From contig JAGHVG010000015.1 of NCBI GenBank assembly GCA_018064405.1, forward strand, positions 1-46,987: DNA of 46,987 bases. The letters run 5' to 3'. This stretch comes from Candidatus Enterousia scatequi. Its GTDB lineage: Bacteria > Pseudomonadota > Alphaproteobacteria > Rs-D84. The position numbers and the translations under genes were made by a program. Under the pieces are notes generated by a model. That model was not told the origin of the DNA. It made no database searches and worked only from the letters and a program-made list of their open reading frames with translations. This document shows positions 28,401 through 46,987 of the stretch, piece after piece; positions within the stretch are counted from its first letter, which is position 1, and every line of letters starts with the position of its first letter.

Positions 28401-29171
28401 TTATTCGTTTAGTTTAACACTATCGTCATAAATATAATATTCGCCAATATGCAGATACCGTTGACTGGAACTATTTATTGTTGTGCGTTGCAAGGTCGCA
28501 TTTCCAAAAAAGTCCGCAATACCGTCATTGTTGATATCAACATTTAATGATGGCGTTGTCTGTTTTGAACCCCGTAAATATAATGTTTCGTCCCCAATAT
28601 GCAGTTTGCGACCACAAGATTCAATTTCAAAAACACCACTTGGTGAAAATAGATTATTCGGACATTCCATTATTCCCTGGGTCACAGTTTCAGAATATTC
28701 ATATTTTCCCCCAGGGCAATAGTTATTATTTGGACAAACCACACATTCCACCCCGTCCGCCGGCAGGTAATAGCCCGCAGAACAATCGTATGAATTGCGT
28801 TCCCATTTTGCGTATGTCTTAACCGGACTTCCAATTAAATAATCATTTACACAACCACCTGCAAAATCTGTGGTTAATATTGAATTAAATATAATCCCTT
28901 GACTTTTATTTTCATTAAATGTATATGTTCCACCGGGGCAAGTATGGTCAGATAAACATTTTACACACTCAATCGCATTTGCCGGCAAATAATACCCTGG
29001 TGCACATGTATATGAATTTATTTGCCAGTGCGCAATCATAAAAGTTTCATTGTCAGCAGGTTTCAAATTATCAACATCACAACCATTGATAATATTTTGC
29101 GTAATAATGCCATCTGCAAACGAATTCACAGATAATAACACACACAACAAAAATAGCTGTATTTTACGCAT
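28401..29171 (-). CDS. Exported cysteine-rich protein with tandem CxxGYYLP repeats and a GRKLHIGD domain
   Basis: Signal peptide MRKIQLFLLCVLLSVNSFA; two repeats CAPGYYLPANAIECVKC.../CSAGYYLPADGVECVVC... Confidence 0.7.
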   Translation of the reverse strand: MRKIQLFLLCVLLSVNSFADGIITQNIINGCDVDNLKPADNETFMIAHWQINSYTCAPGYYLPANAIECVKCLSDHTCPGGTYTFNENKSQGIIFNSILTTDFAGGCVNDYLIGSPVKTYAKWERNSYDCSAGYYLPADGVECVVCPNNNYCPGGKYEYSETVTQGIMECPNNLFSPSGVFEIESCGRKLHIGDETLYLRGSKQTTPSLNVDINNDGIADFFGNATLQRTTINSSSQRYLHIGEYYIYDDSVKLNE

Positions 29172-33344: not shown

Positions 33345-34151
33345 TTATTTTATTTTGCATGCGTCCTTTATATCCGGTGTTGTGATAATATTATCTTTCG
33401 TATATTCCAATAAACATTTTTTTAGGTTATTTGGGTTATCGCATTTCCAACACACCGTAAAGGCCGCTGTTGATATCGCAGTTTTATCTTTTTGATCAAC
33501 ACACGTCAGGATTGCTGCATCCCAAAATTGATTTGGGTTACATTGAATAACATATCCCTCTTTGCTTCCTTGTTGTGGGTCACTTTTATCTATTTTAACA
33601 CAATTATCATCGTATTCACCCGCAAAAGCATAACCAGTGGCACACGCCTTTACACATCTTTTATTATGCGATACATAACCCTGGCGACATTCTTCTGTTG
33701 CCTCGGTACATTTATCATTAGGGTTGTCAACTTCGCCACAAATATTTATTTGACGATTCCAAGAACATTTACCGATGGGATTACCATTTACATCATACAC
33801 CGTTTCAGCCACAGTTTCTGTTTTTATAAGCCATTTATTTCCTTTAACAAAACGACCTGCTTTTTCCTGCGTTCCACCACAACAAAAATGCTTGCCATCA
33901 GAGTATTCATCTGTAAATTGATCACCATGATATAACCAATGTCTTTTATTGCCACCGGTAGGCGGATTTTCTTTACAAGTTTCTGCCTGACTTCCACAAA
34001 ACCAATACTCATCAGAACCATGAGTGTTTACATAACACATATTATTGGTCCCAAAACCCGTCCCACTTGGACCATACGCCATACATGACGATGCGTTCAA
34101 CAAAACACAAATAAATGAAAGAAATGATATAAATAAAACATTTGTTTTCAT
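33345..34151 (-). CDS. Exported cysteine-rich hypothetical protein
   Basis: AAAGGG SD then signal peptide MKTNVLFISFLSFICVLLNASSCMA; many cysteines. Confidence 0.65.
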   Translation of the reverse strand: MKTNVLFISFLSFICVLLNASSCMAYGPSGTGFGTNNMCYVNTHGSDEYWFCGSQAETCKENPPTGGNKRHWLYHGDQFTDEYSDGKHFCCGGTQEKAGRFVKGNKWLIKTETVAETVYDVNGNPIGKCSWNRQINICGEVDNPNDKCTEATEECRQGYVSHNKRCVKACATGYAFAGEYDDNCVKIDKSDPQQGSKEGYVIQCNPNQFWDAAILTCVDQKDKTAISTAAFTVCWKCDNPNNLKKCLLEYTKDNIITTPDIKDACKIK

Positions 34152-34164
34152 TATAAACCCTTTA

Positions 34165-36450
34165 TTATTCATCAATATAGCATATGTTGTTTGACCATAT
34201 TGCGCCCAATATGTCTTTACACCTTAATTCATAATATTCTGGTGCAAAACTGCACGTTCCCATCCTTTCGTTATACGTCACATACCCCTTGGAACCGGTT
34301 CTTTCATTTTCCATATTGCAATCAACCTTTACAGAACTTTCAACACAACGCCCCCAAGAATCTATTTTAGAATCAATACCACCCGATACGCGTGAATAAA
34401 ACGCGGTTAGTGGCTGATAAGTACTATCATATGATTTATTACCCACAAACCATGTTCCGTCCAGTGACTCACATATGCCGGCTAAAACGGTATTCATTTC
34501 TACTTCAAACTCGTCCATCAAATTGGAAATAATAACCTCCGCTTTGTCCGCACTATACTCGCCACCGTCTATAGTCGTGCAAGCGAGTTTAGTATGATCC
34601 ATCAACGATTGGCGTATTGCGTCTGTATTTGTTAATCTACATTTGTACGGATATGCTTGTTCACCGCTATCTGGGGTGCACAATTCATGTAACTTATTCG
34701 CCAATGCGGTATCACATGCCTCGTTAACACGAACAGTATCAACCGTATTAACAAATTTTATCAAAGTCGTCAAACCACACTTGCCCGGATTATTCAATTT
34801 TCCATTATTATCAAACTCACATGACACATCGCCTTCACCACTATACAATGCCGCACAGGCACTGACTTTCTCTGCGCACATTGACCTTGCGGCAGCAATA
34901 CTTAAGCCCGTTGCAACCCCAGCTGTCGCAGTATCAAAACTTTTTAACGCTTCGGTCTGGGTGTCATAGCATTCTGTCATTGTATTAACACACGACATTT
35001 TAACTTCTTCAATTTTCTCATCCTGGGCCTGGGCAATTTCAATTAATGCAGTGCGTTTAAATTCCCGCCAAACCTGTTCTGCGATATCACGACATGAATC
35101 CAATGCACCGGCCGCGAACTGACGTTTCGCATCCAAAAACTTAGAAAACGTTGGATTGTCCCCAAGAACATCCACATCTGTTCCATCAAACTTCAAATTT
35201 ATACGTTCAGTCAATTGAAATAAACGCGGTGAATAAATTGGATCACCCGTAGAATTGTTTATAAACGCCCCTGTATCATCCAAACAGTGCTTATAATCAG
35301 TTCCACACGCAGAATCCGCCAACACAGCCGACTTAACCGCAGTGATACAAGCATTCATATCACTACTGTTATGCGAACGATATTCTTCCAATCTCGCTTC
35401 GCGTAAATATTTTTCAGCAGTCCGCACAGTTTGCTTAACTTGTTCTGTTTTAGAATCAACTTTTTTCGCATACGCATTACAATCCTGGCTAATTAAAATG
35501 CTATACGAACTTTTGGCCATATTGGTCACCGCGCTATTTTCGCATGAATCAGCCACCAATTGCAAACACTGATTGTTTACAGAATTATATAAGCTAGACC
35601 CCTCTAAAGTTGATAAATCAGTACCACCACCAAAACCAAATACTGACGCCCCCGTAGTACCAGACCAAATATCACCCAAATTGGCAGAAAAATTAACATC
35701 TATTAGTCCAACGCTTTTATATGACGCACTACTATTCGTGGAAGATGCCTTGCCAGACAATAAATTTTCAATCTCGCTTAACATTTTAGACGCAGCAGTT
35801 GTGTCTTTCTTTATTGCACGTTCGCCTTCACTCGCAGAATACATGGCCTTTACCTCTGCGGCGGTTTTATCAACAGCGTTCAAACTGTTATCTTCAAATT
35901 CTGCCAGCAACGTTATTGCCTTGTCTAATTTATCTTCGGTGTTACGAAATTCTGTAAACTTATCACTGCAAAAACAACGACGATATGTATCATTAGCATT
36001 CGCACAAAACTGATCCATACAGGATGCATATGCATCACGACATGCCGCATACCCAGATCCAATCTTACTGACGTCAGAAAACACCGCAGTTGCACGCGCA
36101 ACCGTTGCCGCACGTGACATATCACGACCAACATATTCGGACGACCCACCACGCGCCCCCCTTACAATCGGGGTCACAACATTGGAATTCAAACTATTAT
36201 TTATATTACGTACCGCAGACCGCGCAACACGACCAACAAAATTGGAATCACCGCTATCATTTAAACGTGTTACACCACTAGTACGAACATTTGGCGCAGA
36301 ACGAGAATATGAAGACGTACCACCAGTTGTACGCGCAGTATTATTATTTCCAATTGTTCGTGGGGTTGGTGCCTGTTCCGCCAAAACGTCCGCAGGGACA
36401 CCCACAACCAAGAAAACAACCGTCAAAAGTATAAGTTTTAATGATTTCAT
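34165..36450 (-). CDS. Large exported cysteine-rich protein (about 760 aa) of unknown function
   Basis: Signal peptide MKSLKLILLTVVFLVVGVPADVLA; repeated C-x5/6-C pairs such as CRDAYASCMDQFC and CVNTMTEC. Confidence 0.68.
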   Translation of the reverse strand: MKSLKLILLTVVFLVVGVPADVLAEQAPTPRTIGNNNTARTTGGTSSYSRSAPNVRTSGVTRLNDSGDSNFVGRVARSAVRNINNSLNSNVVTPIVRGARGGSSEYVGRDMSRAATVARATAVFSDVSKIGSGYAACRDAYASCMDQFCANANDTYRRCFCSDKFTEFRNTEDKLDKAITLLAEFEDNSLNAVDKTAAEVKAMYSASEGERAIKKDTTAASKMLSEIENLLSGKASSTNSSASYKSVGLIDVNFSANLGDIWSGTTGASVFGFGGGTDLSTLEGSSLYNSVNNQCLQLVADSCENSAVTNMAKSSYSILISQDCNAYAKKVDSKTEQVKQTVRTAEKYLREARLEEYRSHNSSDMNACITAVKSAVLADSACGTDYKHCLDDTGAFINNSTGDPIYSPRLFQLTERINLKFDGTDVDVLGDNPTFSKFLDAKRQFAAGALDSCRDIAEQVWREFKRTALIEIAQAQDEKIEEVKMSCVNTMTECYDTQTEALKSFDTATAGVATGLSIAAARSMCAEKVSACAALYSGEGDVSCEFDNNGKLNNPGKCGLTTLIKFVNTVDTVRVNEACDTALANKLHELCTPDSGEQAYPYKCRLTNTDAIRQSLMDHTKLACTTIDGGEYSADKAEVIISNLMDEFEVEMNTVLAGICESLDGTWFVGNKSYDSTYQPLTAFYSRVSGGIDSKIDSWGRCVESSVKVDCNMENERTGSKGYVTYNERMGTCSFAPEYYELRCKDILGAIWSNNICYIDE

Positions 36451-36504
36451 TTTTTCTCTCTGCTTAAAGTATATCATTTTCACACAGGTCAAATCAACAC
36501 TATT

Positions 36505-37095
36505 TTATTCAATGCAACAATTTACTGCATTTTTTACCCATTGTCCTAGGCGTTTAACCGTTGACATCTCTGTATTCTTGCTTGTTTTTTTGCTTTTTGT
36601 GTCATTGATTTTGCATTGTTTCATTGCGCCATCATAAAATTCAGGAACATTTTCACGAACACCCGACAAATCAATCAAATGCATATTTAATCCCCAGAAT
36701 AATGAATATAAATCATACGCCTTGTCAAACATAGCATAGGCATCTGTTTTGTTGCCCGCACTCAATGCTTTGGTTCCAACCTCCATTAAACGCATGGATG
36801 CCGCCAATAAATGTTTGGATATGCACCAAACTTCGCCACCTTCGGCAGTTGATTTATCAACAATACGCGTCATCAGTTCCTTACGCATATCACGAATCGT
36901 ATTAATCATATCATAAAAACCGTGTTTCTGGGTTTTTGCCCCGCTAAAAAAGAAATGTTCTTCCAAAGAAATAAGATTCATCAACGCAATAGACAAATCC
37001 TGATCAGACGACAAATCCAACGGATTGGCCTTTTTCGCCGCATCCAATTTGTTTATCATTTCGTCCAACGACAGTTTTTTAGCAGTTTTTTTCAT
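36505..37095 (-). CDS. Soluble helical protein of unknown function, C-terminal NCC motif
   Basis: LEEHFFFSGAKTQKHGFYDMINTIRDMRKELMTRIV...GEVWCISKHLLAASMRLMEVGTKAL...NAVNCCIE. Confidence 0.7.
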   Translation of the reverse strand: MKKTAKKLSLDEMINKLDAAKKANPLDLSSDQDLSIALMNLISLEEHFFFSGAKTQKHGFYDMINTIRDMRKELMTRIVDKSTAEGGEVWCISKHLLAASMRLMEVGTKALSAGNKTDAYAMFDKAYDLYSLFWGLNMHLIDLSGVRENVPEFYDGAMKQCKINDTKSKKTSKNTEMSTVKRLGQWVKNAVNCCIE

Positions 37096-37124
37096 CTTTT
37101 ACATCCTTTTATCTTTACCCATTT

Positions 37125-37673
37125 TTAACACAACGTAACACCAATCTGGGGCAACCATTTTATTATCGCCCAAAAAATCAAAGTGACCACCAACAATCCA
37201 CCAAAAGGCATTACCACCTTTTGAAAAGGAAACTTTGCATGTCCGCCATTATTCTTTTTTATGTTAGCATACCATACTTCCATAACAAAAAACACAACAG
37301 ATCCAACAATTATACCCAATAAAAATTGATCTATACCCCACATACATTTATCACCAAATAATACTATCGGTCTACCAGATGGGATAAAATACACCATTAA
37401 TAATAACGCATAATATAAAACAAAATCCAACACATACCAAAATGCCCCCTTAACCCCACGGGAACGCATATAGTTGGCCGTCCACCCAGCCATAGACAAT
37501 GTTAATCCACCCGCCCAAATACCGGTTATAACATCTTCAACACCCAACAAGCGCGCACCTTCCAATCCAGCACCAACGGCAACCGTACACACCGGACACA
37601 CAGCGTACGCAGCCGGCAACACAAACACCATCGCCAATAATGCAAATAAAATGGGTGATAATAATTTCTTCAT
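37125..37673 (-). CDS. Multi-pass membrane protein with CPVC motif
   Basis: N-terminal hydrophobic segment, AVCPVCTVAVGAGLEG, several TM helices, FPFQKVVMPFGG. Confidence 0.7.
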   Translation of the reverse strand: MKKLLSPILFALLAMVFVLPAAYAVCPVCTVAVGAGLEGARLLGVEDVITGIWAGGLTLSMAGWTANYMRSRGVKGAFWYVLDFVLYYALLLMVYFIPSGRPIVLFGDKCMWGIDQFLLGIIVGSVVFFVMEVWYANIKKNNGGHAKFPFQKVVMPFGGLLVVTLIFWAIIKWLPQIGVTLC

Positions 37674-45305: not shown

Positions 45306-46987
45306 TCATAGTCCCACCGAACCGAACAAGCCCTCTCGGAGCGAGGAATAGGTCTGGCCATAGTGAGCACACCCCCATGCACAAACGTAATCACAAGGAT
45401 ATCCTTGTGCGACGGCATCAGTAAAGAACACCCATTTAGAGCCAACCGGTTCCGTCATTTTGCACCAACAATATCGACCAGTACTAGTTTGACTAAAGTT
45501 TTCATTTGTGGGCGTCGCCCCTGTACCAGGTGTGCTATTACATGATGCTATGCCCTTGATTTTTCCATACCTAAATGTTACACCCCATGTTCCCGGTTCG
45601 GCTAAACTATAGGCACCTATGTTTTCTGTATCCCCAGTAAAATCCCAAGAACCATTGTCGGTCCCGTTTGTTGACGGATCTATGCACTGACTAAATCCGA
45701 TGTCATATTGACCAGCTGGACACGATAAGCGTGCACTATCATCATAGATATAATAGGTTGATCCATTATATGTAGATTTGTATGATTTTGTTACGCCATC
45801 CGACATCTTATGTGACGTTGTTGACATATTACCAAACAAATTCGGGGTTCCATCGTTATCTGTATCAACCTTCAACGATGGGGTTGTTTTCTGGGTAGTG
45901 CGCAAATACAGCACATTATCACCCAAATGCAATTTACGTCCACAATCGCCAGCTTCATCCGCACCCGTACCATAACCAATCGTGGTCAGACCCGCAGGAC
46001 ACTGATTACGTTCAGATACTGAACCATAATTCACACTATGTGCATCCTTGTAATACCCTATACCAACATTTGTGCATGCTGCATTTGCTGTTGATACATA
46101 TGTCCCTGCGCCACAATTCGTATAACATGCCGCTGCACCACCACTATTGCCATCGCTACTATTCGGATAGTCGGTTGGACACACAGGACAGGTTGCACCA
46201 TCAACATAATACCCAGAGCCTGCAGTCACTGTCTTTACCGTCTTGGTACAACTCTCACTCGTTGTGCCACTTGTCGAACCATCGCCATTTCCACTGGTGT
46301 TCGAATACTGTATATATGTGCTGCCATCGCAAGAACAATCATTATATGCTGTTACTGATGCACATCCTGATGGTGTTGTTGCATTGTTTTTGGTACAACT
46401 TGCTGTTCTGGTCGTATAACATGATGTTATTGCCTGCGAACCCGCACTGCTGTTCGGATATGCAGTTGGACATGCAGAACATGTTAAATAATTCGAAGAA
46501 ACCGGGCCCGCAACAAAACTGCCACTGCCTGAATTGCCATAGAACTTATCAGTCACTGTATCATACATTCCAATCGCACCATCACTGTTACGTTTCGCTG
46601 GGATAAGATTCTGCTTCAAAGTCAAACCATCTTGCCATATTTTACTGTTAAATACCTGCATGCGTACATTTCTATTATCAATACTATCAACAGTATTCAT
46701 AGCGAATATTAGCGCAGATTTGGTGTTTTCAAAAACAGTTGTATTCCCATTAGCTCTCAATAATGTATCGTTATAAAAAAAACCATCTCTTGATAAAGTT
46801 ATTTTTGATTTGTCTGTAGCAATAGCACTTGGGAAAACATAGCTTGTATCTACTGAACCAAAATTAAAAGCATACGTTTTAGTTGAATCAACCCACACAG
46901 CATATTTATTTACAGAACCATAATCCGCTCTATAACCAAACAAACACTCGGGGCCACTAAAAGGTGATATATATTTAAGTGTAATAT
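45306..46987 (-). CDS. Large exported-type cysteine-rich modular protein (LamG-like, Cys-rich repeats, GRKLHLGD domain), 5' end beyond window
   Basis: ORF stays open to the window edge (…ITLKYISPFSGPECLFGYRADYG…), so the listed start at 46943 is probably internal; LIPAKRNSDGAIGMYDTVTDKFYGNSGSGSFVAGPV; CGRKLHLGDNVLYLR. Confidence 0.7.
   Translation of the reverse strand, partial: ITLKYISPFSGPECLFGYRADYGSVNKYAVWVDSTKTYAFNFGSVDTSYVFPSAIATDKSKITLSRDGFFYNDTLLRANGNTTVFENTKSALIFAMNTVDSIDNRNVRMQVFNSKIWQDGLTLKQNLIPAKRNSDGAIGMYDTVTDKFYGNSGSGSFVAGPVSSNYLTCSACPTAYPNSSAGSQAITSCYTTRTASCTKNNATTPSGCASVTAYNDCSCDGSTYIQYSNTSGNGDGSTSGTTSESCTKTVKTVTAGSGYYVDGATCPVCPTDYPNSSDGNSGGAAACYTNCGAGTYVSTANAACTNVGIGYYKDAHSVNYGSVSERNQCPAGLTTIGYGTGADEAGDCGRKLHLGDNVLYLRTTQKTTPSLKVDTDNDGTPNLFGNMSTTSHKMSDGVTKSYKSTYNGSTYYIYDDSARLSCPAGQYDIGFSQCIDPSTNGTDNGSWDFTGDTENIGAYSLAEPGTWGVTFRYGKIKGIASCNSTPGTGATPTNENFSQTSTGRYCWCKMTEPVGSKWVFFTDAVAQGYPCDYVCAWGCAHYGQTYSSLREGLFGSVGL

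Follow-up and report, generated by a model that had tools for sequence, protein, structure and literature searches.

A conserved gene pair encoding a CxxC membrane protein and a CC-tailed cytosolic protein suggests a possible thiol-disulfide relay in genome-reduced bacteria

What might two adjacent genes do together when one encodes a membrane protein with a CPVC motif and the other a soluble helical protein with a double cysteine near its C-terminus? The question is raised by the window, that is, the whole stretch of 46,987 nucleotides of Candidatus Enterousia scatequi that was analyzed here. A reading of this DNA made without database searches (the sequence-only reading) had described the pair as an undescribed redox or metal-handling system. 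The listing of open reading frames (ORFs) contained both minus-strand genes at the positions given in that reading, and they are called A and B here. The features of the locus are as follows.

37125..37673, minus strand: gene A, ORF of 182 aa, exported membrane protein without known family
37587..37598, minus strand: CPVC motif of A (residues 26-29), both cysteines invariant in the A alignment
36505..37095, minus strand: gene B, ORF of 196 aa, soluble cytosolic helical-bundle protein without known family
36955..36963, minus strand: Glu-Glu-His of B (residues 45-47), invariant in 69 homologues
36811..36828, minus strand: WCISKH motif of B (residues 90-95), WCxxKH in all 69 homologues
36508..36561, minus strand: tail helix and NCC-IE of B (residues 179-196), separable module
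34165..36492, minus strand: large exported protein of 775 aa with 29 Cys, 12 nt 3' of B
33345..34175, minus strand: exported protein of 276 aa with 20 Cys, overlapping the preceding gene

A and B are co-directional, lie 29 nt apart, and are flanked by rsmH and the two genes for very Cys-rich exported proteins, all in the same direction. Within the genus, loci of the window type have a homologue of the 775-aa protein directly 3' of B (where the sequence is long enough), and it keeps this position even in those loci that have lost A; conservation of the 276-aa protein is lower than that of this neighbor. Other Cys-rich ORFs were observed elsewhere in the window, at 28401-29171 (13 Cys in 256 aa, beginning with a signal-like segment) and at 45306-46943 (23 Cys in 545 aa). 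The pairing of A with B is far above chance, as homologous pairs are present in dozens of genomes, drawn from two phyla. Neither protein matched a Pfam or NCBIfam family, no convincing match was obtained for the 62 A and 69 B homologues, and profile searches against the PDB with either protein were empty or at chance level, in agreement with the earlier view that both families are undescribed. No toxin, virus, or resistance reading arose.

The AlphaFold2 model of A (pLDDT 78, pTM 0.70) featured a signal-like helix, a helix beginning at the CPVC motif, and four membrane helices (residues 47-71, 77-95, 116-141, and 151-177). A fold search of PDB structures with this model gave no match (best E 2.1). 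In the alignment of 62 A proteins, C26, C29, G55, and G124 were invariant. The CPVC motif does follow the first hydrophobic segment directly, as the sequence-only reading had described, and it is near-invariant: the CxxC is kept in 61/62 proteins, mostly as CPVC, with CAVC in its place in nine A proteins of a second alphaproteobacterial type. Two more cysteines had been pointed out in A, one in a GDKCMWG stretch and one at the C-terminus; both are present but lineage-specific, and as 33 of 61 A proteins contain no cysteine beyond the CxxC, the additional ones are not conserved. The first segment had been counted as part of a multi-pass membrane protein. It is indeed hydrophobic, but an AxA-like signal-peptidase site just before the CxxC in 57/61 A proteins, together with the absence of the segment from three, makes a cleaved signal more likely than a membrane span, and CPVC is probably located at or near the mature N-terminus. 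Basic residues are concentrated in loops 1 and 3, a charge distribution that predicts the CxxC to face outside.

Protein B was modeled with low confidence (AlphaFold2, pLDDT 65), with five helices and a further helix in the tail, and it carries no signal segment. Residues invariant among the 69 B proteins include D27, D33, E45, E46, H47, K54, R68, and R71 and, further along the chain, E88, W90, C91, K94, H95, R102, E105, and K109. Conservation of the WCISKH motif, which the sequence-only reading had proposed as a check, is complete at the level of WCxxKH (69/69); in the window the surrounding stretch reads GEVWCISKHLLAASMRLMEVGTKAL.

The same check had been proposed for the C-terminal NCC, which occupies residues 192-194. 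It is present and conserved but, being followed by Ile-Glu, is not strictly terminal, contrary to what had been stated. A CC pair lies within the last 8 residues of 66/69 B proteins, and the remaining three have it in trans. In two loci (L069 and L073), the tail is encoded by an ORF of its own (32-33 residues) immediately 3' of B, that of L073 being MKKEMKKKKAKKNDFWSKIGDVVKNAVDCCIE (32 residues), and in a third (L067) it forms part of another protein, of 133 aa. Free tails of 25-35 residues also occur in L147, L148, and L149. Only tails inside contigs and with their own start codons were counted as free; two other candidates, in L084 and L085, sit at contig ends and were set aside as truncated genes. 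As loci with a CC-less B carry the tail as a free ORF or fused to another protein, it is separable, and on these sequence comparisons the CC tail is a module that need not be joined covalently to B. The 133-aa protein (L067:3448-3849) has no assigned family, ends in an NCC-like C-terminal tail, and adjoins the tail-less B.

B was found in 17/289 Alphaproteobacteria sampled across the class, in 33/40 close relatives of the window genome (23/24 within the genus, the exception being G636), and in 48/333 Patescibacteria. The occurrence in Patescibacteria, which the sequence-only reading had put forward, is real. That reading had also regarded a copy in an alphaproteobacterium as remarkable; the pair is present there, but it is no isolated oddity, being nearly genus-wide and found in several other alphaproteobacterial families. 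Close homologues come from gut alphaproteobacterial metagenome-assembled genomes (horse, roe deer, rumen, and rabbit), from others labelled Rickettsiales, and from Patescibacteria, among them Woesebacteria and Berkelbacteria. The window genome comprises 756 kb at 79% completeness, and its order, Rs-D84, has been described as comprising genome-reduced gut bacteria that lack respiratory chains (PMC12306168). No relatives were found in plasmids or viral contigs, and PHROGs yielded nothing usable. In the tree of B, the window type formed one clade (support 100/100) and the second alphaproteobacterial type was separate from it, both types lying among Patescibacteria rows with weak deep forks. Such a shape would fit either transfer between phyla or an ancient duplication. 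In some members of the window's order, small basic membrane proteins were also observed between A and B (L100:3254-4009 and L099:3674-4042).

Five genomes of the genus carry, at the rsmH locus, a degenerate B without Glu-Glu-His, WCxxKH, and CC:

L090:2625-3035, degenerate B copy
L091:2663-3034, degenerate B copy
L092:2693-3100, degenerate B copy
L093:2437-2853, degenerate B copy
L094:2571-2951, degenerate B copy

A is gone from four of these five loci and kept in L093, and the same genomes have a second, full B elsewhere. The joint loss of the three motifs and of A supports a function that they share.

A third protein recurs at these loci. C is an exported CPHC protein, with a signal or membrane anchor, that has a glutaredoxin fold by profile (PDB matches to 3e-9) and invariant C43 and C46. 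With a thioredoxin-type profile match and a CxxC, C is by its sequence a member of the glutaredoxin superfamily. It adjoins A in 20/41 Patescibacteria loci, frequently with a 4-nt overlap, and is fused to A as one protein in five loci (L069, L073, L147, L148, and L149). In Alphaproteobacteria, C lies 3' of B in several loci, and one locus of the window's order (L089) holds A, B, C, and an ArsR-type tandem-HTH regulator in a single array. C does not adjoin A or B in window-type loci; the window genome encodes an unlinked exported C-like protein (G000:C3, E 1.7e-15) that exceeds the Pfam cut-off for Glutaredoxin, and a C-like match was obtained in 36/40 of its relatives.

Proteins of the DsbD/CcdA type take the place of A near B in three Patescibacteria loci. 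In L144 and L146, which have no A at the locus, B is immediately preceded by a DsbD_TM-type gene and immediately followed by a thioredoxin gene, and in L082 a DsbD_TM-type gene is followed by a cupredoxin and then B, again with no A found in the locus; of the three DsbD_TM-type matches, that of L144 exceeds the Pfam cut-off and those of L146 and L082 fall below it. It is chiefly because of these DsbD-type proteins in the place of A that we read A as a thiol carrier. The array of L146 was also seen to run into NiFe hydrogenase-like genes (L146:3605-5385; the small subunit matches PF01058). Among Patescibacteria, VKOR was detected in 6/48 genomes with B and 130/285 without (Fisher p 6e-6, kinship ignored), and DsbD_TM in 16/48 and 140/285, respectively, a weak tendency (p 0.06, kinship likewise ignored). 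The 40 relatives of the window genome contained no DsbB and no VKOR, and the single DsbD_TM among them belongs to a genome that lacks B (G649). Within the window's genus, no DsbB, VKOR, DsbD, or HMA domain was detected. VKOR has been described in Patescibacteria beside an MdbA-like oxidoreductase, in an account whose accessible part mentions neither A nor B (PMC6744442). In three Patescibacteria genomes where both occur (L152, L153, and L154), a distance of only about 8-10 kb separates VKOR from B.

We lean, by a modest preference, toward the reading that A, B, and C would constitute a transmembrane thiol-disulfide relay built of unrelated parts and operating reductively, with B as the cytosolic donor, A as the membrane carrier, and C as the outer component. 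A cytosolic reductant would first reduce B, at Cys91 and at its mobile CC tail. This tail, which is amphipathic, would then dock at the membrane and pass electrons to the CxxC of A, which would in turn reduce the CPHC of C, and C would maintain exported proteins with their cysteines reduced or in the correct pairs. In the window's genus, possible clients are the very Cys-rich proteins of 775 and 276 aa encoded 3' of B. The direction of the electrons, the contact between B and A, the access of the tail to an outer-face CxxC, and the clients are steps that we infer. The redox-type residues are the conserved core of the system (CxxC in 61/62 A, WCxxKH in 69/69 B, and the CC tail), and the genome context, comprising partner C, the DsbD/CcdA-type proteins in the place of A, and the rarity of VKOR, favors a redox role, with a metal context in a minority of loci. 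The conserved cysteines and this context bear out the initial description of an undescribed redox or metal-handling pair, with the function itself being what we infer from them. Against the relay stand the prediction of the only conserved Cys pair of A on the outer face while the CC tail of B is cytosolic, the invariant E45, E46, H47, E88, H95, and E105 of B, which would be superfluous in a plain thiol carrier, and the locus L093, where A remains intact next to a B that has degenerated, though a second B is present elsewhere in that genome. Several B loci also hold copper, zinc, or arsenic genes.

These genes underlie the main rival explanation, trafficking of a soft metal such as Cu(I), Zn, or arsenite, in which C and the CPVC of A would hand the metal across the membrane to the CC tail of B inside the cell; we regard it as unlikely, though worth serious attention. 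Copper, zinc, or arsenic genes occurred in 9/41 Patescibacteria B loci and in 2/40 control loci from the same genomes, a comparison that leans toward metal since its queries were drawn from the B loci, and in which one control locus contained a full copper operon. The two control loci show that such genes turn up by chance as well. CsoR and a DsbD-cupredoxin protein were found near B in L013 and L070, CopA overlaps B in L074, an HMA protein and CopA are present in L080, and a cupredoxin in L082; an ABC-3 metal permease lies near B in L048 and L066, and ArsP_1 in L049 and L052. The ArsR-type tandem-HTH regulator that adjoins many alphaproteobacterial copies points the same way. Most B loci, however, have no metal gene, and the partner that recurs, C, is glutaredoxin-like and carries CPHC. 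The genus of the window, covered by 24 genomes in all of which but G636 B was detected, contains no HMA-domain protein, and a purely copper-based role of the window pair was downgraded for this reason. Copper handling often requires thiol reductants outside the cell, so that the metal and redox readings can coexist.

An oxidative relay, in which A, B, and C would form disulfides in exported proteins in place of VKOR or DsbB and B would pass the electrons to a cytosolic acceptor, appears to us improbable. It would account for the anti-correlation of VKOR with B, for the CPHC of C, which is the active-site motif of DsbA, and for the Cys-rich exported proteins 3' of B in the window. DsbB and VKOR use quinone. 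With respiratory chains reported absent in Rs-D84, such quinone-using enzymes would lack an acceptor there (PMC12306168), which also speaks for this alternative. On the other side, A has no second Cys pair, and C resembles glutaredoxins rather than DsbA. The DsbD/CcdA-type proteins that occur near B where A is absent are reductive in known systems.

Least probable, at a rather low level, is that B is a metal-center enzyme or sensor acting through its tail on varied membrane partners, with A as an anchor or transporter: the invariant E45, E46, H47, E88, C91, H95, and E105, a weak rubrerythrin-like resemblance of the helical bundle (E 0.17, TM 0.32), and the different partners found with B argue for it, but the resemblance concerns a low-confidence model, the ExxH pairs typical of di-iron bundles are absent from the conserved set, and the CxxC of A and the partner C would be left unaccounted for. 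The Glu and His invariants, which lie outside the reach of the relay model, may still mark a metal center or catalytic site in B.

If the relay exists, Patescibacteria and gut Alphaproteobacteria, both genome-reduced, would have in it a dedicated pathway for managing the cysteines of exported proteins in bacteria without DsbB, VKOR, or DsbD. It would give a function to two unannotated protein families and account for some of the patchiness with which VKOR is distributed among Patescibacteria, and its small detachable CC peptide would make the chemistry directly testable. A bolder proposal, which we advance tentatively and hold to be somewhat doubtful, is that DsbB/VKOR and DsbD/CcdA have a third counterpart here, a class of transmembrane dithiol conduit that evolved independently and whose dedicated cytosolic protein contacts the membrane carrier by means of a detachable, amphipathic CC tail. 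Such a class would be common to Patescibacteria and to genome-reduced Alphaproteobacteria with no detected Dsb membrane protein, and some lineages would encode its CC tail separately, as a peptide of roughly 30 residues.

Comparison with known systems gives partial likenesses. DsbD/CcdA proteins (PF02683) are, as is proposed for A, membrane thiol carriers, and they are likewise encoded with an exported thioredoxin-fold protein. However, comparison of A with DsbD_TM detected no similarity (hhalign probability 0.1%, and no Pfam match in 62 A proteins), and the two cysteines of DsbD/CcdA reside in separate membrane helices, whereas A has a single conserved, adjacent CxxC. We know of no counterpart in DsbD/CcdA systems to a dedicated cytosolic CC-tailed partner such as B. 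VKOR or DsbB acting with DsbA or MdbA likewise combines a short CxxC membrane protein with an outer thioredoxin-fold partner, and the distribution of VKOR is partly complementary to that of B. VKOR (PF07884) and DsbB (PF02600) have a loop Cys pair in addition to the CxxC, whereas A has no second conserved Cys pair, and none of the 62 A proteins matched the VKOR or DsbB family models. VKOR also contains CPVC; a homology of A to VKOR through this shared motif was rejected, as profile comparison aligned 11 residues only.

The arrangement of C, A, and B also recalls MerP, MerT, and MerA, a periplasmic Cys protein, a small membrane protein with a Cys pair, and a cytosolic protein with a mobile C-terminal CC, which in mercuric reductase takes Hg(II) from MerT. 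The Mer parallel ends at the sequences, as neither A nor B matched any Mer family in Pfam or NCBIfam; moreover, C is a glutaredoxin and not an HMA protein, and B is not a flavoprotein. DUF4266, a small Cys-ended protein that occurs in DsbD/thioredoxin clusters and is proposed to redox-cycle with DsbD and a thioredoxin, resembles the tail of B, but it is secreted, linked to flavinylation, and ends in CxC (PMC8238504), whereas the tail of B is cytosolic and ends in CC. The sequence-only reading had found the topology of A unlike DsbB, DsbD/CcdA, or VKOR, and both the family models and the arrangement of the Cys pairs agree. To judge from its sequence and gene neighbors, A may nevertheless work like one of these carriers while standing outside their families.
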